DNA of 53,620 bases from an uncultured Bacilli bacterium (lineage in GTDB: Bacteria > Bacillota_I > Bacilli_A > RF39 > UBA660), in NCBI GenBank assembly GCA_947631035.1, contig CANRJW010000006.1:1-53620 (forward strand), given 5' to 3'. A program made the translations under genes and the position numbers. Below, piece after piece: positions 9,079-36,516 of the stretch. How positions within the stretch are numbered: the first letter of the stretch is position 1; every line of letters begins with the position of its first letter. The notes below the pieces were generated by a model. The model was not told the DNA's origin, did not search any database, and saw nothing but the letters and a program-made list of their open reading frames with translations.

Positions 9079-10902
9079 ATGAAAAAGCGTATTCGTGTAT
9101 TTGGTAGAAAAATTTTATCCCTTTTTTTAGTTTTTCTTATTACGTTTTCCTCTATTTTTTCCTTTCCAATCGTTGCATTTGCCGACAATGTTTATGTTGG
9201 ACGCGTAACAGCAAATGATGTTTTCTTCCGTTCAACACCAACAACAAAACCAGAAAATGGCGTTAGTAATGTTATAACCTCTTTAGACGAAGGAGATGTT
9301 GTTACCGTTCTTTCAATAGAGAAAGTGGGAGGAGCTAAAGGCGATTGTTCTTCTGGTTGGTATTCTATTCAATATAAAGATAAATCTGGTTATATTTGTT
9401 CTACTTATATTTCTGTAGATGGATATGATATTTATGACCGCCCTTGGACAAGTCCTAAAAAAGCGATTATCGGTGGAGCAAAATTTATAGGAAAATCTTA
9501 CATTAGTCGTGGACAATTTACTAGTTATTTAAAAAAATACAATGTAAATCCCGATGGAGATTTTGAAGTCTACAACCATTTATATATGTCTAATCTTGCT
9601 GCTCCATCTAGTGAAGCGAAAACCAGTTATACCGCCTATCAAAAAAATGGCTTACTTGATTTACCTTTAGTCTTTAATATTCCAATTTATAAAAAAATGG
9701 AAGATTCATATGATAGACCAGGAGGAAACCTTACTAAAATTGAGAAACAAAGTGAAGTAAAAGACCAAGCATTTGAAGATTTACTTGATAAACAAGAATT
9801 CCCAGAAAGTTATAAAGAAGCTTTAAGAGCCTTACATGAAATCCATCCTAATTGGACATTTGTAAGTATGTATACCGATTTAACGTTTAGTAAAGCAGTA
9901 AATGCCTTTCAAATTGTTGGAGCCATTCAAGGAGGAGAAAAATATTACGAACTTGAAAAAGGCAAACCGGTTCAAGCAGGGAATGATAAAGGATGGTATG
10001 TTCCAAATAAAGAAACAACAGCTTACTATTTGGACCCAAGAAACTTTTTAACAGAACAATATATTTTACAATTTGAAAGTTTAGAAAATTCTGAAGTTTA
10101 CACCGAAAGTGTTGTCCAAAGTATTTTAAAAGGTACTTTTATGGAAGGAATTTCCATTTTAGATAATCAATCTTATGCTTCTATCTTTGTTGAAGCAGGT
10201 AAATCTGCTAATGTAAGTAGTGTTTATTTAGCCAGTTTGGCAAGACAAGAATCAGGTGTAAATGGAAGTGGAGCCACAACCGGTAATGAATTTGAATATG
10301 AAGACGTTACCTATTCTGGATTATTTAACTTCTTTAATATTGGAGCATCGAGTGGAGCATCAAATCCTTTAAAAGCTGGATTAGTTTATGCAAGTGGTGG
10401 TTCTTGTACCAAATGTGATAACAATACTCAATATACAACACCAATACCTAGTGAAACCCCTGGAGAAAATACAAATCCAAGTACCCCTGCAACCCCAGAA
10501 GAACCTAAAGCAGAAAATTTAAAAACTTTAATTGAAGAAGGTGGCTATCAAGTAAGCGGTGAGTATGTTCATGGTTTTAAAGTTGGGACAAGTGTTGAAA
10601 AAGTTGAAAAGAATTTAGCAAATGGCGTAACTGTAAAAACAGACAATGATATCATTGGTACGGGAGATAAGATAACATATAATGGAGAAACATATCTTGT
10701 AGTGGTTTATGGAGATTTAACCGGTGATGGTAAAATTAATTCAGCAGACTTACTTAAAATGCGTAAATATTTACTAGGAGATAGCAATTTATCAGGTGCT
10801 TATAAAGAATCTGCTTATTTAACGGACGATAGTAAAATTAATTCAGCAGACTTACTTAAAATGAGACAATATCTACTTGGAGATAGTAAGATTTCTCAAT
10901 AA
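9079..10902 (+). CDS. Secreted N-acetylglucosaminidase with SH3b and dockerin-like domains
   Basis: A 607-residue exported peptidoglycan hydrolase. Residues 1-36 form a signal peptide ending near VAFADN. An SH3b-like wall-binding domain covers about 36-120. A LytG/AtlA-type glucosaminidase domain covers about 245-440, with YYLDPRNFL and the region around SLARQESGV expected to hold the catalytic glutamate. A low-complexity PSETPGENTNPSTP linker follows. The C-terminus carries two 22-residue dockerin-type calcium loops, DLTGDGKINSADLLKMRKYL and a second TDDSKINSADLLKMRQYL. I start at ATG 9079 after GGGAAGTGA; a GTG at 9070 is part of the ribosome site. It forms an operon with the next gene. Confidence 0.88.
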   Translation: MKKRIRVFGRKILSLFLVFLITFSSIFSFPIVAFADNVYVGRVTANDVFFRSTPTTKPENGVSNVITSLDEGDVVTVLSIEKVGGAKGDCSSGWYSIQYKDKSGYICSTYISVDGYDIYDRPWTSPKKAIIGGAKFIGKSYISRGQFTSYLKKYNVNPDGDFEVYNHLYMSNLAAPSSEAKTSYTAYQKNGLLDLPLVFNIPIYKKMEDSYDRPGGNLTKIEKQSEVKDQAFEDLLDKQEFPESYKEALRALHEIHPNWTFVSMYTDLTFSKAVNAFQIVGAIQGGEKYYELEKGKPVQAGNDKGWYVPNKETTAYYLDPRNFLTEQYILQFESLENSEVYTESVVQSILKGTFMEGISILDNQSYASIFVEAGKSANVSSVYLASLARQESGVNGSGATTGNEFEYEDVTYSGLFNFFNIGASSGASNPLKAGLVYASGGSCTKCDNNTQYTTPIPSETPGENTNPSTPATPEEPKAENLKTLIEEGGYQVSGEYVHGFKVGTSVEKVEKNLANGVTVKTDNDIIGTGDKITYNGETYLVVVYGDLTGDGKINSADLLKMRKYLLGDSNLSGAYKESAYLTDDSKINSADLLKMRQYLLGDSKISQ

Positions 10903-16342: not shown

Positions 16343-16411
16343 AGCAAGACATATTCGACTTAAAACTTTTCCTCAGGGGTTTTGGTTGAATAAAAAAGAA
16401 AGGATAATAAA

Positions 16412-17284
16412 ATGAAACTAGAAAAGAAATTACTAAACGACGAATATGCTAAAAAGATATTTCGTAGTGAAGATTGTAGGGAGTATGTCGCAAGTGTTAT
16501 AGCAGTGGTGTTAAATTTAAAAAAGGAATATGTCATGGAGAATTTAACCCTCATCAATCCTAATGTAAATATCAATGAGAATGTCAAAGACCAAGAAGTA
16601 GATACTGTATATGATACCAAAGAGAACTATATCAATATCGAAATCAATTATCGTAATAGTAAAGTATCGAAAATTAAGAATAGTGCTTATATAGCTCAGC
16701 TTTATTTAAAACAAGTAAAACCAGGAGAAAAGTATCAAATAAAGCCAATTGTGCAAATCAATATCAATAATTATGACTATTATAAGAAGAATCAATTTAT
16801 CTACCATAGTTATGTAATGGAAGAAGAATACCATATCGTAAGAGACAAAAATATCGAAATATATGATATCAATCTAGATTTATTAAGTAAAATGGATTAT
16901 AATGAGATAGAAAAAATGAATGAAAGGGATTTAAAGTGGCTCTTATATATCTTTGTATGTGAAGATAAAAAGCTACGCAAAGAGGTTTATGGTGGAAGTG
17001 AAATGATGAAGAAAGTCAATAAAAAGGTAGAGGATTATGAACAAGCTTTAGATGCTTATTTATTCTATGACAAGAAAGCACTTGATGAAGCAGGAATGTA
17101 TGAGATGGGTGTTGATGATGGAATGATTCAAGGCGAAAAGAAAAAAGCGATAGAAACAGCTAAGAGATTGTTAAAGATGGGAGTTCTCAATGATAATCAA
17201 ATTGCAGAAGCAACAGGCCTAACCAAAGCCGAAATTAAAAAGATTCAAAAAGAAGAAAACGAATCCGAAAAATCGGAAGAATAG
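16412..17284 (+). CDS. Rpn/YhgA-type PD-(D/E)XK nuclease family protein, copy 1
   Basis: A 290-residue member of the recombination-promoting nuclease (Rpn, formerly called putative transposase) family. The PD-(D/E)XK core is seen as DQEVDTVYDT (D64) and YINIEINYRN (E77, with N79 where many relatives have Q or K). Near residue 245 comes a degenerate helix-turn-helix-like tail (LLKMGVLNDNQIAEATGLT), common in the family. ATG 16412 follows AAAGGAT. It differs from copy 2 mainly after residue 225, where it has a longer GMIQGEKKKAIETAKR linker and an extra acidic C-terminus. Rpn proteins promote RecA-independent recombination in E. coli and may take part in phage defence; the role here is unknown. 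Confidence 0.82.
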   Translation: MKLEKKLLNDEYAKKIFRSEDCREYVASVIAVVLNLKKEYVMENLTLINPNVNINENVKDQEVDTVYDTKENYINIEINYRNSKVSKIKNSAYIAQLYLKQVKPGEKYQIKPIVQININNYDYYKKNQFIYHSYVMEEEYHIVRDKNIEIYDINLDLLSKMDYNEIEKMNERDLKWLLYIFVCEDKKLRKEVYGGSEMMKKVNKKVEDYEQALDAYLFYDKKALDEAGMYEMGVDDGMIQGEKKKAIETAKRLLKMGVLNDNQIAEATGLTKAEIKKIQKEENESEKSEE

Positions 17285-17309
17285 TTTTCTTCTTTTTTAT
17301 ATGAGAAAA

Positions 17310-17336
17310 CCACCAACTATATTGGTGGAATTTTTT
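17310..17336 (+). terminator. Terminator between the Rpn copies
   Basis: 7-bp stem CCACCAA (17310-17316) with TTGGTGG (17322-17328), 5-base loop, then AATTTTTT. Confidence 0.85.
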
Positions 17337-17386
17337 ATCCTTTTTTGTCGAATAATTAGAAGTTTCTTCTAGTTTTGTCGAAAGCC

Positions 17387-17414
17387 TTGAAAGAAAGAAA
17401 AGAACACTTATAAT
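17387..17414 (+). promoter_or_regulatory. Promoter of Rpn copy 2
   Basis: TTGAAA at 17387-17392, 16-bp spacer, TATAAT at 17409-17414, same arrangement as copy 1. Confidence 0.7.
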
Positions 17415-17483
17415 AGCAAGACATATTCGATTTAAAACTTTTCCCGGGGGTTTTGGTCGAATATATGTAAAGGAGAAATTATC

Positions 17484-18311
17484 ATGCTAAAAGAAAAAAA
17501 ATTACTAAACGACGAATATGCTAAAAAGATATTTCGTAGTGAAGATTGCAGAGAGTATGTCGCAAGTGTTATAGCAGTGGTGTTAAATTTAAAAAAGGAA
17601 TATGTCATGGAGAATTTAACCCTCATAAATCCTAATGTAAATATTAATGAGAATGTCAAAGATCAAGAAGTAGATACCGTATATGATACCAAAGAGAACT
17701 ATATCAATATTGAAATCAATTATCGTAATAGTAAAGTATCTAAAATCAAGAATAGTGCTTATATAGCCCAACTTTATTTAAAACAAGTAAAACCAGGAGA
17801 GAAGTATCAAATAAAACCAATTGTCCAAATTAATATCAATAATTATGACTATTATAAAAAGAATAAGTTTATCTATCATAGTTATGTGATGGAAGAAGAA
17901 TACCATATCGTAAGAGACAAAAATATTGAAATATATGATATCAATCTAGATTTATTAAGTAAAATGGATTATAATGAGATAGAGAAAATGAATGAAAGGG
18001 ATTTAAAGTGGCTATTGTATATCTTTGTATGTGAAGATAAAAAGCTACGAAAAGAGGTTTATGGTGGAAGTGAAATGATGAAGAAAGTCAATAAAAAGGT
18101 AGAGGATTATGAACAAGCATTAGATGCTTATTTATTCTATGACAAGAAGGCGCTGGATGATGCAGGAATGTATGAAATGGGTGTTGATGATGGTAAAAAA
18201 GAAACAGCCAAGAAATTATTAAAAATGGGAGTTCTCAATGATAATCAAATTGCAGAAGCAACAGGTCTAACCAAAGACGAAATCGAACAAATTCAAAAAG
18301 AAGAAAAGTAG
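17484..18311 (+). CDS. Rpn/YhgA-type PD-(D/E)XK nuclease family protein, copy 2
   Basis: A 275-residue near-duplicate of the preceding protein. Over the first 225 residues I see only a handful of changes (the extreme N-terminus, one Q to K, one E to D). The tail is shorter: VDDGKKETAKKLLKMG replaces the longer copy 1 linker, and it ends in EIEQIQKEEK. The nuclease residues D64 and E77 equivalents are kept, so both copies should be active or inactive alike. ATG 17484 follows AAAGGAG. Each copy has its own promoter and terminator, so they are separate transcription units rather than an operon. Confidence 0.82.
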   Translation: MLKEKKLLNDEYAKKIFRSEDCREYVASVIAVVLNLKKEYVMENLTLINPNVNINENVKDQEVDTVYDTKENYINIEINYRNSKVSKIKNSAYIAQLYLKQVKPGEKYQIKPIVQININNYDYYKKNKFIYHSYVMEEEYHIVRDKNIEIYDINLDLLSKMDYNEIEKMNERDLKWLLYIFVCEDKKLRKEVYGGSEMMKKVNKKVEDYEQALDAYLFYDKKALDDAGMYEMGVDDGKKETAKKLLKMGVLNDNQIAEATGLTKDEIEQIQKEEK

Positions 18312-23640: not shown

Positions 23641-23670
23641 ATTATAGCATGCTATAAAGATGATTTGCAA
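23641..23670 (-). promoter_or_regulatory. Divergent promoter region with 16-bp palindrome
   Basis: Minus-strand promoter of the six-gene cluster: -35 TTGCAA (23670-23665), 18-bp spacer, TATAAT (23646-23641) with TGC before it. The perfect palindrome TTATAGCATGCTATAA (23642-23657) gives a mirror extended -10, TGCTATAAA (23650-23658), on the plus strand. The plus-strand promoter would originally have faced the acyltransferase gene now 1.3 kb away. Confidence 0.65.
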
Positions 23671-23674
23671 ATAA

Positions 23675-23699
23675 TTCTATTTTTTGTTAAACTTAAAAA
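23675..23699 (+). repeat. 25-bp target-site duplication, left copy (IS copy 1)
   Basis: The 25 bases here (TTCTATTTTTTG...TTAAAAA) are repeated exactly at 24937-24961 on the other side of the IS. Confidence 0.9.
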
Positions 23700-23899
23700 T
23701 GTGCAATTATAATAGAAATGTGACAGTTATTCCAATTTACCATCAAAATTTCAGGAACCGATAATGTGATGATAAGGCAGAGGCTCAGCAGCGAGTAGCA
23801 AAGCTACAATCTGCCTGAGGCACAGAAGCCTATCACATCATCCCTAAAATTTTAATGTTTTCTCGGCATAAACTTTATCAAAGAAGAAATAATTGCACA
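23700..23899. repeat. 200-nt imperfect palindrome in the IS left end
   Basis: The left-end 11-mer TGTGCAATTAT is matched by ATAATTGCACA at 23889-23899. Between them, further arms pair (CATCAAAATTTCAGG with CCTAAAATTTTAATG; GTGATGATAAGGC with GCCTATCAC; AGGCAGA with TCTGCCT) up to a tip GTAGC-AAA-GCTAC near 23796-23808. The stretch could fold as one long hairpin in DNA or RNA. No protein is supported in these 250 bases before the transposase gene. Confidence 0.75.
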
Positions 23900-23953
23900 G
23901 TGTAGGTTTGTCAAACCAATCCAACTCAATTTTTGGAAAGGAATGAGAAATCT

Positions 23954-24886
23954 ATGAGTAAACCAAAAATTACTCAGCAGATGAGATACCGAGAGTCTCT
24001 CATCAAATACGCCAAAAAACATGGCGTATCCAAAGCTTCTCGTGTTTACAACACGAATAGGCAATACATCTATCGTTGGAGGAAACGTTACAACGGAGAT
24101 GTTCGTTCTCTAGCAAATGAGAGTACAAAACCGAAAAGTCATCCTAATCAGCATACGAAAGAAGAATTAAAGTTAATTCAAGATGTCTTTCGTAAAAACC
24201 AGAATACAGGTTTAGTTGTTCTTTGGGTAAAATTACAACAACGTGGATATTCTAGATCTATTTCTAGTTTATATCATCAGTTAAAAAAATTAAATCTAAA
24301 ATATGTTACTCCAAAGAAACATAAAAAGAAAACAACAAAACCGTATATTCAGATGACTTTTCCTGGTGAACGAGTCCAGATAGATGTAAAAACCGTTCCA
24401 ACAAAATGTATCGTTGGCCAGTTCAAATTTTATCAATATACAGCTATAGATGAATTCTCTCGTTATCGTTACTTAAAAATCTATGAAGAGAAATCAACAT
24501 ACACTTCGTATAAATTTTTATTGGAAGTAATAAAAAGATTTCCATTTAAAATTTATACGATAAGAACGGATAACGGAGTGGAATTCACCAAAAGACTGAT
24601 ATCTAATGATCCAAATGATATTACCATGTTTGAACTTGGCCTTAAAAGAAATGGTATCCATCATGACTTGATCAAACCTTATACACCAAAACATAATGGT
24701 AAGGTTGAACGAAGTCATCGAAAGGATAACGAACGGTTTTATAATTGCCATCGCTTTTATTCATTAGAAGATGCCAATCAACAGTTGCAAGTTTATTTAA
24801 GGGAATATAATAATTTCCCTATGCAACCTCTTAATTGGAAATCTCCTAATGAATTGCTTCGTGATTATTTTAATTTATTAAAATAA
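23954..24886 (+). CDS. DDE transposase of IS copy 1
   Basis: A 310-residue single-frame transposase. The N-terminal part has a helix-turn-helix (YAKKHGVSKASRVYN, then YIYRWRKRY), followed by an integrase core with the acidic triad in VQIDVKTVP (first D), IRTDNGVEF (second D) and HNGKVERSHRKDNE (glutamate). This layout fits the IS481/IS3-like group without a frameshift. ATG 23954 lies a little downstream of GGAAAGGAA; a TTG at 23933 would add seven residues. It is identical in protein sequence to the second copy, with only silent changes seen, so both insertions are recent. Confidence 0.92.
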   Translation: MSKPKITQQMRYRESLIKYAKKHGVSKASRVYNTNRQYIYRWRKRYNGDVRSLANESTKPKSHPNQHTKEELKLIQDVFRKNQNTGLVVLWVKLQQRGYSRSISSLYHQLKKLNLKYVTPKKHKKKTTKPYIQMTFPGERVQIDVKTVPTKCIVGQFKFYQYTAIDEFSRYRYLKIYEEKSTYTSYKFLLEVIKRFPFKIYTIRTDNGVEFTKRLISNDPNDITMFELGLKRNGIHHDLIKPYTPKHNGKVERSHRKDNERFYNCHRFYSLEDANQQLQVYLREYNNFPMQPLNWKSPNELLRDYFNLLK

Positions 24887-24936
24887 TCTATCGTTGGTTT
24901 GTCGTGACTCTGTCACTTTTGTTTGACAAACCTACA

Positions 24937-24961
24937 TTCTATTTTTTGTTAAACTTAAAAA
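24937..24961 (+). repeat. 25-bp target-site duplication, right copy (IS copy 1)
   Basis: Exact repeat of 23675-23699. Confidence 0.9.
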
Positions 24962-24979: not shown

Positions 24980-26085
24980 ATGAAAGATGAAGAAATTTTA
25001 GTTAAAGAGAGTCGGGGGGGGGGACTAGAGTATTAATATACGATTGGGTAAGATTGATTGCTATGATTTTAGTTGTTATTGGTCATAGCATGTATTTAAA
25101 TATTACTTCAACTTATGGTAGTATAAATTATACATTGCCTTCAAATATAAGTGATGAATATTTTAGTGGATTATTTACTTTTTTCAAGATGTTACCCACC
25201 TGGATTTATCAGTTCCATATGCCACTTTTTTTTGCTCTATCAGGTGCTGTATTAGCCCTTAAACCTATAAAAAATTTTGACAAATTGTGTAAGGGAAAAT
25301 TTAAGAGATTAATAATACCGTATTTTATTTATGGCTGTTTATTTATGATTCCTATTAAGTATATTAGTGGTTTTTATGTAAATTCTAGTATTTTACCTGC
25401 ACTGAAAGGATTTTTAATTGGAATAGAAGGTAGTCATTTATGGTTTTTACCATCTTTATTTTGGTGCACAATTTCTTTTGCAATTATATATCTTTTGTTC
25501 TCTAAAGTAACTGAGAGTAAATATGTATTGTTGATCGTCACCGGAATAATTCAAATTTTATATAATTATTTGCCTTTTGATGTTTTTTTCTTGAAAATGG
25601 GGTTAAGTTATATATTTTGGTTTGCGTCAGGATTTGTGTTTGAGTTAGAAAGAAAATCTTTACACTATAATTTTAAAAAAAATATGATATATTTTATAAT
25701 AACAATTATATTGGAAATATTAAATTTTAAATATAAGTTTTTTAATTCTTTTTTTGAAATTTTTTGTGGATGTGTTTTTGTATATTTATTAGCAGAAATT
25801 TGTTCATTTCTATTTAAAAAGATAGCAAATAATTCTTTTTGGAAATTGATAATACAAAATTTATTTTTTGTATATTTGTTACATGATCCATTAGAATATT
25901 TAGTTTTAAAGATATTTATGTCACATAATTGGTTAACTACTTCTTATGGGTGTTATTTTTACTTATTTTCTAGAACAATTTTAGTTTTTATGGTTTGCCT
26001 AGTTTTAGGTGTGTTAATAGAAAAATTAAAAAAAATAATTGCAAATTTATTAGGCGATAATTCTTTCCAACAATTAGTGCAATGA
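24980..26085 (+). CDS. Acyltransferase-3 family membrane protein, phase-variable, out of frame here
   Basis: ATG 24980 follows GAGGAAG by 7 bases and reads MKDEEILVKESR into a run of ten G (25014-25023), then stops at 25034-25036 after 18 codons. With eleven G (or eight) the same start runs through TRVLIYDWVRLIAMILVVIG into the whole open frame to 26085, giving 368 residues. That junction is the normal N-terminus of acyltransferase-3 proteins (YDWxRxIAxxxVVxGH, with the catalytic histidine), which move acyl groups onto surface sugars with about ten membrane helices. So the gene is intact apart from the tract and is OFF in this sequence. An internal ATG at 25054 lacks a ribosome site and would lose the first motif. 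Confidence 0.85.
25014..25023 (+). repeat. Poly-G tract (G10), coding phase switch 1
   Basis: Ten G residues in the 12th to 15th codons of the acyltransferase gene. Predicted ON lengths are 8 or 11; the 9- and 10-G forms meet early stops. Confidence 0.9.
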
Positions 26086-35279: not shown

Positions 35280-36516
35280 TGTAGGTTTGTCAAACAAAAG
35301 TGACAGAGTCACGACAAACCAACGATAGATTATTTTAATAAATTAAAATAATCACGAAGCAATTCATTAGGAGATTTCCAATTAAGAGGTTGCATAGGGA
35401 AATTATTATATTCCCTTAAATAAACTTGCAACTGTTGATTGGCATCTTCTAATGAATAAAAGCGATGGCAATTATAAAACCGTTCATTATCCTTTCGATG
35501 ACTTCGTTCAACCTTACCATTATGTTTTGGTGTATAAGGTTTGATCAAGTCATGATGGATACCATTTCTTTTAAGGCCAAGTTCAAACATGGTAATATCA
35601 TTTGGATCATTAGATATCAGTCTTTTGGTGAATTCCACTCCGTTATCCGTTCTTATCGTATAAATTTTAAATGGAAATCTTTTTATTACTTCCAATAAAA
35701 ATTTATACGAAGTGTATGTTGATTTCTCTTCATAGATTTTTAAGTAACGATAACGAGAGAATTCATCTATAGCTGTATATTGATAAAATTTGAACTGGCC
35801 AACGATACATTTTGTTGGAACGGTTTTTACATCTATCTGGACTCGTTCACCAGGAAAAGTCATCTGAATATACGGTTTTGTTGTTTTCTTTTTATGTTTC
35901 TTTGGAGTAACATATTTTAGATTTAATTTTTTTAACTGATGATATAAACTAGAAATAGATCTAGAATATCCACGTTGTTGTAATTTTACCCAAAGAACAA
36001 CTAAACCTGTATTCTGGTTTTTACGAAAGACATCTTGAATTAACTTTAATTCTTCTTTCGTATGCTGATTAGGATGACTTTTCGGTTTTGTACTCTCATT
36101 TGCTAGAGAACGAACATCTCCGTTGTAACGTTTCCTCCAACGATAGATGTATTGCCTATTCGTGTTGTAAACACGAGAAGCTTTGGATACGCCATGTTTT
36201 TTGGCGTATTTGATGAGAGACTCTCGGTATCTCATCTGCTGAGTAATTTTTGGTTTACTCATAGATTTCTCATTCCTTTCCAAAAATTGAGTTGGATTGG
36301 TTTGACAAACCTACACTGTGCAATTATTTCTTCTTTGATAAAGTTTATGCCGAGAAAACATTAAAATTTTAGGGATGATGTGATAGGCTTCTGTGCCTCA
36401 GGCAGATTGTAGCTTTGCTACTCGCTGCTGAGCCTCTGCCTTATTATCACATTATCGGTCCCTGAAATTTTGATGGTAAATTGGAATAACTGTCACATTT
36501 CTATTATAATTGCACA
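35280..36516 (-). mobile_element. Insertion sequence copy 2 (1,237 bp, inverted relative to copy 1)
   Basis: Same length and ends as copy 1: on the plus strand it opens with TGTAGGTTTGTCAAAC and closes with ATAATTGCACA. It has its own, different 25-bp target duplication, so it arrived by a separate transposition. A few substitutions against copy 1 are visible in the palindromic left end (for example AGGGACCG for AGGAACCG) and one silent change in the transposase gene. It separates the intact GT-C paralogue from the RgpF-like gene and leaves the latter's promoter untouched. The palindrome lies at 36317-36516. Confidence 0.9.
35330..36262 (-). CDS. DDE transposase of IS copy 2
   Basis: 310 residues, identical in protein sequence to the transposase of copy 1, with the same helix-turn-helix and D-D-E core. 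The start is the ATG ending at 36262, matching the choice for copy 1. It faces away from the polysaccharide locus. Since both copies are whole, either can supply transposase in trans. Confidence 0.92.
   Translation of the reverse strand: MSKPKITQQMRYRESLIKYAKKHGVSKASRVYNTNRQYIYRWRKRYNGDVRSLANESTKPKSHPNQHTKEELKLIQDVFRKNQNTGLVVLWVKLQQRGYSRSISSLYHQLKKLNLKYVTPKKHKKKTTKPYIQMTFPGERVQIDVKTVPTKCIVGQFKFYQYTAIDEFSRYRYLKIYEEKSTYTSYKFLLEVIKRFPFKIYTIRTDNGVEFTKRLISNDPNDITMFELGLKRNGIHHDLIKPYTPKHNGKVERSHRKDNERFYNCHRFYSLEDANQQLQVYLREYNNFPMQPLNWKSPNELLRDYFNLLK

Follow-up and report, generated by a model that had tools for sequence, protein, structure and literature searches.

Copy-out/paste-in insertion sequences such as IS911 and IS30 have junction promoters, IS21 and IS110 also form circles, and host replication is credited with converting the single-strand-joined copy-out intermediate into a double-stranded circle. 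IS3, IS30 and IS256 are described as copy-out families, and a junction promoter accompanies copy-out/paste-in transposition in ISCth4 of the IS256 family (PMC7780238). Prokaryotic IS481 elements are reported to generate target duplications of 2-15 bp, and the IS481EU elements of parabasalids have TGT...ACA ends and discrete duplication lengths near 4, 15 and 25 bp (PMC10045372). The IS1202 family is characterized by transposases of 394-507 amino acids and TGT/ACA ends and includes one subgroup with long duplications (PMC10132070). Single-strand origins (sso) are strand-specific and depend on RNA polymerase for priming (PMC5703833), and ICEBs1 uses such an origin for second-strand synthesis (PMC4595007).

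Borders, target duplications and transposase of the element

The window, by which we mean the whole 53,620-nucleotide stretch of DNA analysed, contains two nearly identical full copies of the element, each 1,237 bp long (23700-24936 on the plus strand and 35280-36516 on the minus strand). The following features define the borders and the gene of the element, together with the further copies.

23675-23699, no strand: left copy of the 25-bp target duplication, TTCTATTTTTTGTTAAACTTAAAAA, from flank comparison
23700-23726, plus strand: left end tip, 27 bp, TGTGCAATTATAATAGAAATGTGACAG, the border in 10 of 10 left ends of the assembly
23954-24886, plus strand: DDE transposase gene, 310 amino acids from ATG, with D144, D206 and E252
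24910-24936, minus strand: right end tip, 27 bp, reading inward TGTAGGTTTGTCAAACAAAAGTGACAG, from the borders of the copies and of relatives
24937-24961, no strand: right copy of the 25-bp target duplication, from flank comparison
35280-36516, minus strand: second full copy, with its own exact 25-bp duplication, ACAACAATTTTATATTTTTATATAA
53544-53620, plus strand: third copy, left end only, the rest cut off by the contig end

The source assembly (1.43 Mb in 82 contigs) breaks at copies of the element and exposes 10 distinct left and 11 distinct right ends, each with its flank. All 10 left ends start with TGTGCAATTAT, and none has its border at the internal TGTAGG. Matching of flanks within the assembly resulted in nine left/right pairs, eight of which have exactly 25 bp in common; in the ninth (contigs C75 and C31) one side has 25 bp and the copy on the other side is two bases shorter. 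One left end and two right ends were left unpaired. The 25-bp flank of the third copy in the window is identical to a right-end flank on contig C36. The original prediction had given both full copies a length of 1,237 bp and exact 25-bp repeats of their own, had placed the true left border at the outer tip rather than at the internal TGTAGG, and had described asymmetric outer ends; coordinates, lengths and flanks were all borne out, and a recount of the outer ends again found 18 of 27 positions in agreement and GTGACAG at equal distance from the two tips.

Relatives were gathered from related genomes and from named contigs, and in the 25 with both ends located the duplications are 25, 26 or 27 bp long, with single mismatches in three. 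The overall tally of 31 duplications, which like the comparison of tip matches below omits the near-identical loci L003, L006, L042, L044 and L075, comprises 20 of 25 bp, 8 of 26 bp and 3 of 27 bp. The duplications are AT-rich (618 of 789 bases) and exhibit no clear motif that would indicate a target preference. The ends are TGT...ACA in the window element, and in some relatives one end reads TAT or TCT instead.

The best start of the transposase gene is the ATG at 23954, and Pfam assigns integrase core domains to its product. The predicted fold has a mean pLDDT of 88, with low values at 246-252, and its nearest match is IstA of IS21. The NCBIfam IS481 model (NF033577) matches all 28 aligned proteins and has the best E-value among NCBIfam families for the window protein, which scores 206.8-206.9 bits against it, below the cut-off of 224. 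The L052 transposase, which contains a stop codon, was left out of the protein set. The distance from the second D to the E is 45 residues in the window protein (D206-E252) and 42-45 residues in 26 of 27 clade proteins for which a script located both residues (the script failed on L098, and its value of 31 for L097 is a misassignment), compared with about 34-35 as the IS481 norm and 34 in all four annotated IS481 reference proteins, which come from plasmids. These four references are separated from the clade by long branches in the tree, and relatives of the transposase were absent from viral_contigs.

The element resembles IS481 in its compact form, in its single DDE transposase with an N-terminal helix-turn-helix and in its TGT...ACA ends, but differs in transposase score, in D-E spacing and in duplications of 25-27 bp (31 tallied) as opposed to the 2-15 bp reported. 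IS481EU, in contrast, is eukaryotic and mixes duplication lengths within the family, whereas the window clade has only 25-27 bp. Judged by these sequence characters, the element is a member of an IS481-like clade whose marks are a DD(42-45)E transposase and duplications of 25-27 bp. The original prediction had further suggested a new group with likeness to IS1202-type elements. The first part probably stands. The 25-bp duplication does fall within the 16-28-bp range of the long-duplication IS1202 subgroup; however, the IS1202 transposase is longer (394-507 versus 310 amino acids) and belongs to another NCBIfam group, and the window protein scores only 44 bits, with a cut-off of 250, against ISNCY_2, the model that fits IS1202-like proteins met among the other loci. 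For these reasons IS1202 membership was dropped.

Several other features of the window are recorded here. Shortly before an acyltransferase-like gene (25054-26085), a short open frame contains a run of ten G residues (25014-25023), which may be a phase-variation switch, in which a change of length could fuse the frames. Two tandem, near-identical genes at 16403-17774 (290 and 275 amino acids, 93% DNA identity over 300 bp) encode what we take to be, possibly, PD-(D/E)XK transposase-like proteins. Two dockerin-like repeats (10715-10889) end a protein of 610 amino acids.

The palindrome and its likeness to plasmid single-strand origins

A 200-nt palindrome ending one base from an internal copy of the right end was confirmed by folding and by position; its folding lies far below that of shuffled sequences (z -4.8, 0 of 200 shuffles as low). 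The palindrome that had been assigned to the left end is thus real, but it is not part of the end itself and sits between the left tip and the mirrored junction described below. The short forms L045 and L035 are without palindrome and origin and have 25-bp duplications nonetheless. The palindrome includes the following features.

23721-23877, minus strand: single-strand-origin-like element, with the RSB motif on the minus strand
23858-23871, minus strand: RSB motif, 5'-TTATGCCGAGAAAA-3', 14 of 14 bases
23727-23737, minus strand: conserved 3' arm of the sso, 5'-AATTGGAATAA-3'

With R1, a covariance model of the left end, the inner part alone was found in other genomes. An alignment of 23 sequences on the minus strand contains 34 pairs, with compensatory changes in 24 (alignment A3 leaves out L049, L050, L051, L144, L125 and L046). 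Double-change cells number 185 versus 68.9 in shuffles, and 90.4% of cells pair versus 34-47% when the partners are slid by 1-3 columns. The minus strand, which carries the RSB, is the better folder in 24 of 26 cases, and the RSB strand also folds better in 16 of 16 further matches, which had been selected by means of a model for this same strand and are not fully independent. This strand folding test suits single-stranded DNA as well as RNA.

What kind of sequence would be preserved in this manner? A new structured RNA was considered and dropped, since the invariant motif is the plasmid RSB of the literature. Rfam gave no match to the palindrome in the window at gathering thresholds or in 23650-24000 at E up to 5, nor in 16 loci at gathering thresholds or six loci at E up to 2; the Rfam matches overall were rRNA in the window and otherwise only tRNA and chance matches. 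The RSB 14-mer TTATGCCGAGAAAA is identical to that in the annotated sso of plasmids pSELNU1 (PMC4598088) and pSSTET1 (PMC6395029). A second model, R2, was built without any plasmid and, when run against 11 small plasmids, yielded full-model matches in three (L360, L361 and L362, E 2e-12 to 4e-14), whose origins carry the RSB, the 3' arm AATTGGAATAA and CS-6. The other eight plasmids had no significant R2 match and no good RSB, and an earlier run on seven of the 11 plasmids and four IS481 loci returned nothing significant. CS-6 (TAGCGT/A), which is typical of ssoA, occurs exactly in none of the 38 origins outside the window, and the window copy is also without it. Origins of the window type accordingly share with ssoA/palA-type plasmid origins the RSB, the conserved 3' arm, a long imperfect hairpin and strand specificity, but differ in the missing CS-6, in their location inside insertion sequences and in mostly not adjoining a Rep gene. 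With the RSB and hairpin shared and CS-6 missing, the palindrome is by its motifs an RSB-type, plasmid-like single-strand origin, near ssoA but not a full match. Presumably it would act as an origin on the minus strand and would have a role in transposition.

R2 matches occur in 17 of 336 genomes of the class and in 5 of 285 genomes of a phylum sample, all five within the class. A transposase lies within 400 nt of 18 of the 38 origins outside the window versus 1 of 30 control sites in the same genome set, and the single positive control is a control pattern that matched an IS481 gene by chance. The families represented are IS3, IS21 (IstB), IS30, IS110 and ISNCY. In the IS3, IS110 and ISNCY cases the origin often shares the strand of the transposase gene and starts at most about 13 nt from the stop of that gene; in the remaining cases it is upstream of the transposase or on the opposite strand. 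Three ISNCY and three IS3 loci have similar end sequence after the origin, which suggests that the origin sits within the insertion sequence at these loci, at most of which a clean duplication was not found. A repeat of about 380 bp is present four times in one genome (L342-L345, G444), has imperfect terminal inverted repeats with the origin within and no transposase nearby, and is MITE-like. Other origins lie near genes for MvaI/BcnI-type restriction endonucleases (L129, L155 and L284), a rolling-circle Rep gene (once) and a Mob_Pre gene (once). In a scan of viral sequences with the 14-mer no locus survived the two-motif filter, and a stricter pattern gave four loci, one adjoining an IS3 transposase. 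One viral contig (L351) has a GC-rich origin with both conserved arms, and by this case the origin class may reach other hosts. In the open-licence literature we recognised no report of a single-strand origin within an insertion sequence, the nearest case being IS5-family inverted repeats near a plasmid sso (PMC12016507).

An alternative explanation is that the origin is a passenger that aids its carrier by re-forming the double strands of a plasmid or conjugative element, or that it is the relic of a rolling-circle plasmid insertion. Such an account would fit the 20 of 38 origins without a transposase match within 400 nt, the origins adjoining Rep, Mob_Pre and MvaI-type restriction genes (3 loci) and the requirement of ICEBs1 for its sso for stable acquisition (PMC4595007). 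However, the origin of the IS481-like clade lies within a duplication-bounded element, the origins at the ISNCY and IS3 loci lie between the transposase and a putative right end, and one origin has been copied inside the four-copy MITE-like repeat. We regard a passenger or relic as a possible, if not a probable, explanation.

Predicted junction promoter and inverted copy of the joined ends

Comparison of the outer ends points to a promoter that would be assembled when the ends are joined, and an inverted version of the same joint is present inside the left end. The features are as follows.

24923-24928, plus strand: TTGACA, predicted -35 of the junction promoter, from end comparison
23708-23713, plus strand: TATAAT, predicted -10 of the same promoter, spaced 17 bp from the right-end -35 when one base separates the joined ends
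23889-23899, minus strand: LE', an 11-bp inverted copy of the left tip
23900, no strand: G, the single spacer base of the internal junction copy
23901-23916, minus strand: RE', a 16-bp inverted copy of the right tip

All 25 elements have TANAAT at positions 9-14 of the left end and, in the right end, TTGACA or a sequence close to it. Joining the ends in silico with one base between them produces a 17-bp spacer and a score of 10-12 of 12 in 25 of 25, a register that is inherited, such that the 25 cases are not independent and amount to one observation kept through descent; 0.7% of shuffled ends score 10. The right-end -35, left-end -10 and fixed register are those of copy-out insertion sequences with junction promoters, from which the window element differs in its predicted one-base spacer and in the inverted junction copy in its left end. 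From the 25-27-bp duplications together with the promoter at the joined ends we infer a circular copy-out intermediate, at whose junction the promoter would be active and the spacer would be one base.

Read in reverse complement, the stretch ATAATTGCACA-g-TGTAGGTTTGTCAAAC (23889-23916) gives right end-c-left end, and LE'-g-RE' is an inverted copy of the predicted circle junction. The left tip matches LE' at 10-13 bases in 15 of 15 elements and at no more than six across the four tip classes (AATTA, AGTTA, ATTTA and GTTTA). For the right tip and RE' the match extends over 15-19 bases in 13 of 13, and this holds for the altered tips of L035, L052 and the L073/L095/L099 group as well. Carriers of the junction copy cluster as a single group in the tree (8 rows, support 87/88). 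The short forms L035, L045 and L117 retain the junction copy, with left ends that measure just 44-52 bases. In the joined state, the junction and its copy would be the two arms of a perfect 28-bp inverted repeat that encloses the left-end loop. The idea of LE' as an outward promoter was dropped, its -10 position not being conserved.

It is conceivable that LE'-g-RE' is functionless and that its identity to the tips is kept by template switching or gene conversion between inverted repeats. The matching to the tips is as strict as DNA identity, and LE and LE' are just 44-200 nt apart, as this would have it; but RE' and RE change together despite a separation of about 1 kb, and in most elements the identity ends near a common point, ahead of the AAT of the -10. 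We consider a functionless copy doubtful.

Certain hairpins of IS10 and IS50 shield the transposase gene from outside transcription, and the left-end structure could likewise be an RNA device of this kind. In the compact relatives L056-L060 and L067 an inverted repeat spans the transposase ribosome-binding site (e.g. GGAAATACC...GGTATTTCC), would be foldable in outside transcripts and is what protection from outside transcription would be expected to look like. In the window element, however, the best-folding strand is the minus strand and not the strand read into the transposase gene, the ribosome-binding site is not within the palindrome and the conserved motifs are those of plasmid sso, which makes an RNA shield very unlikely.

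The nested internal ends of the original prediction are present as end-like sequences one base apart, with no sign in the assembly of their use as ends. Solo 200-bp copies were also looked for, and the one LE-sso-LE' stretch found is a degenerate case without matching duplication (L124/L346; in L346, G717:C10:27551-27749, a solo left end with single-strand origin). That the internal copies are alternative ends, with a 200-bp mini-element and a 1,036-bp core movable apart, is extremely unlikely: the solo stretch does stop exactly at the LE' tip, but it has no duplication, the outer tip is used in 10 of 10 left junctions of the assembly, and the subterminal GTGACAG common to the outer ends is missing from LE' and RE'.

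Proposed transposition route and its significance

We favor, with moderate confidence, a model that combines an IS481-like clade, copy-out/paste-in transposition, a junction promoter, an inverted junction copy and a plasmid-type origin in the loop. Copy-out/paste-in would be the most likely route of the element. A circle would arise by joining of the right end to the left end across a spacer of about one base, the transposase would be expressed from the strong promoter formed at the junction (TTGACA-17-TATAAT), and the circle would integrate with a 25-bp stagger. In one subclade, LE'-g-RE' in the left end would produce a perfect 28-bp hairpin around the loop upon joining, and in the window element and its close kin this loop holds the plasmid-type single-strand origin, with the minus strand as the predicted active strand. 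The likeliest role of the origin would be to allow host RNA polymerase to prime the second strand while the element is single-stranded, either as its own excision intermediate or during carriage on transferred DNA.

A broader hypothesis is that copy-out families carry such origins since the excised copy is a partly single-stranded circle primed by RNA polymerase, and that the hairpin promoter exists only in the joined circle with its -10 partly unpaired, which would confine both priming and transposase expression to the circle. We hold this to be rather unlikely. Some observations also count against the favored model itself: the origin is optional and lacks CS-6, 20 of the 38 origins have no transposase match nearby, and the strand of the origin relative to the transposase differs between insertion sequence families, which leaves a single common role in transposition unproven. 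Moreover, the good -10 of the hairpin promoter would lie opposite the RSB strand, and the two parts may therefore not serve one single-stranded form.

The surprise of this locus is a plasmid-type single-strand origin in insertion sequences together with an inverted junction copy that covaries with the ends. The clade is a further bacterial group with a fixed 25-bp stagger and is useful for considering the IS481-like stagger steps near 5, 15 and 25 bp. A plasmid-type priming site would explain a class of end-proximal palindromes that resemble noise, and its presence in insertion sequences of several families suggests a concrete route to the double-stranded circle.
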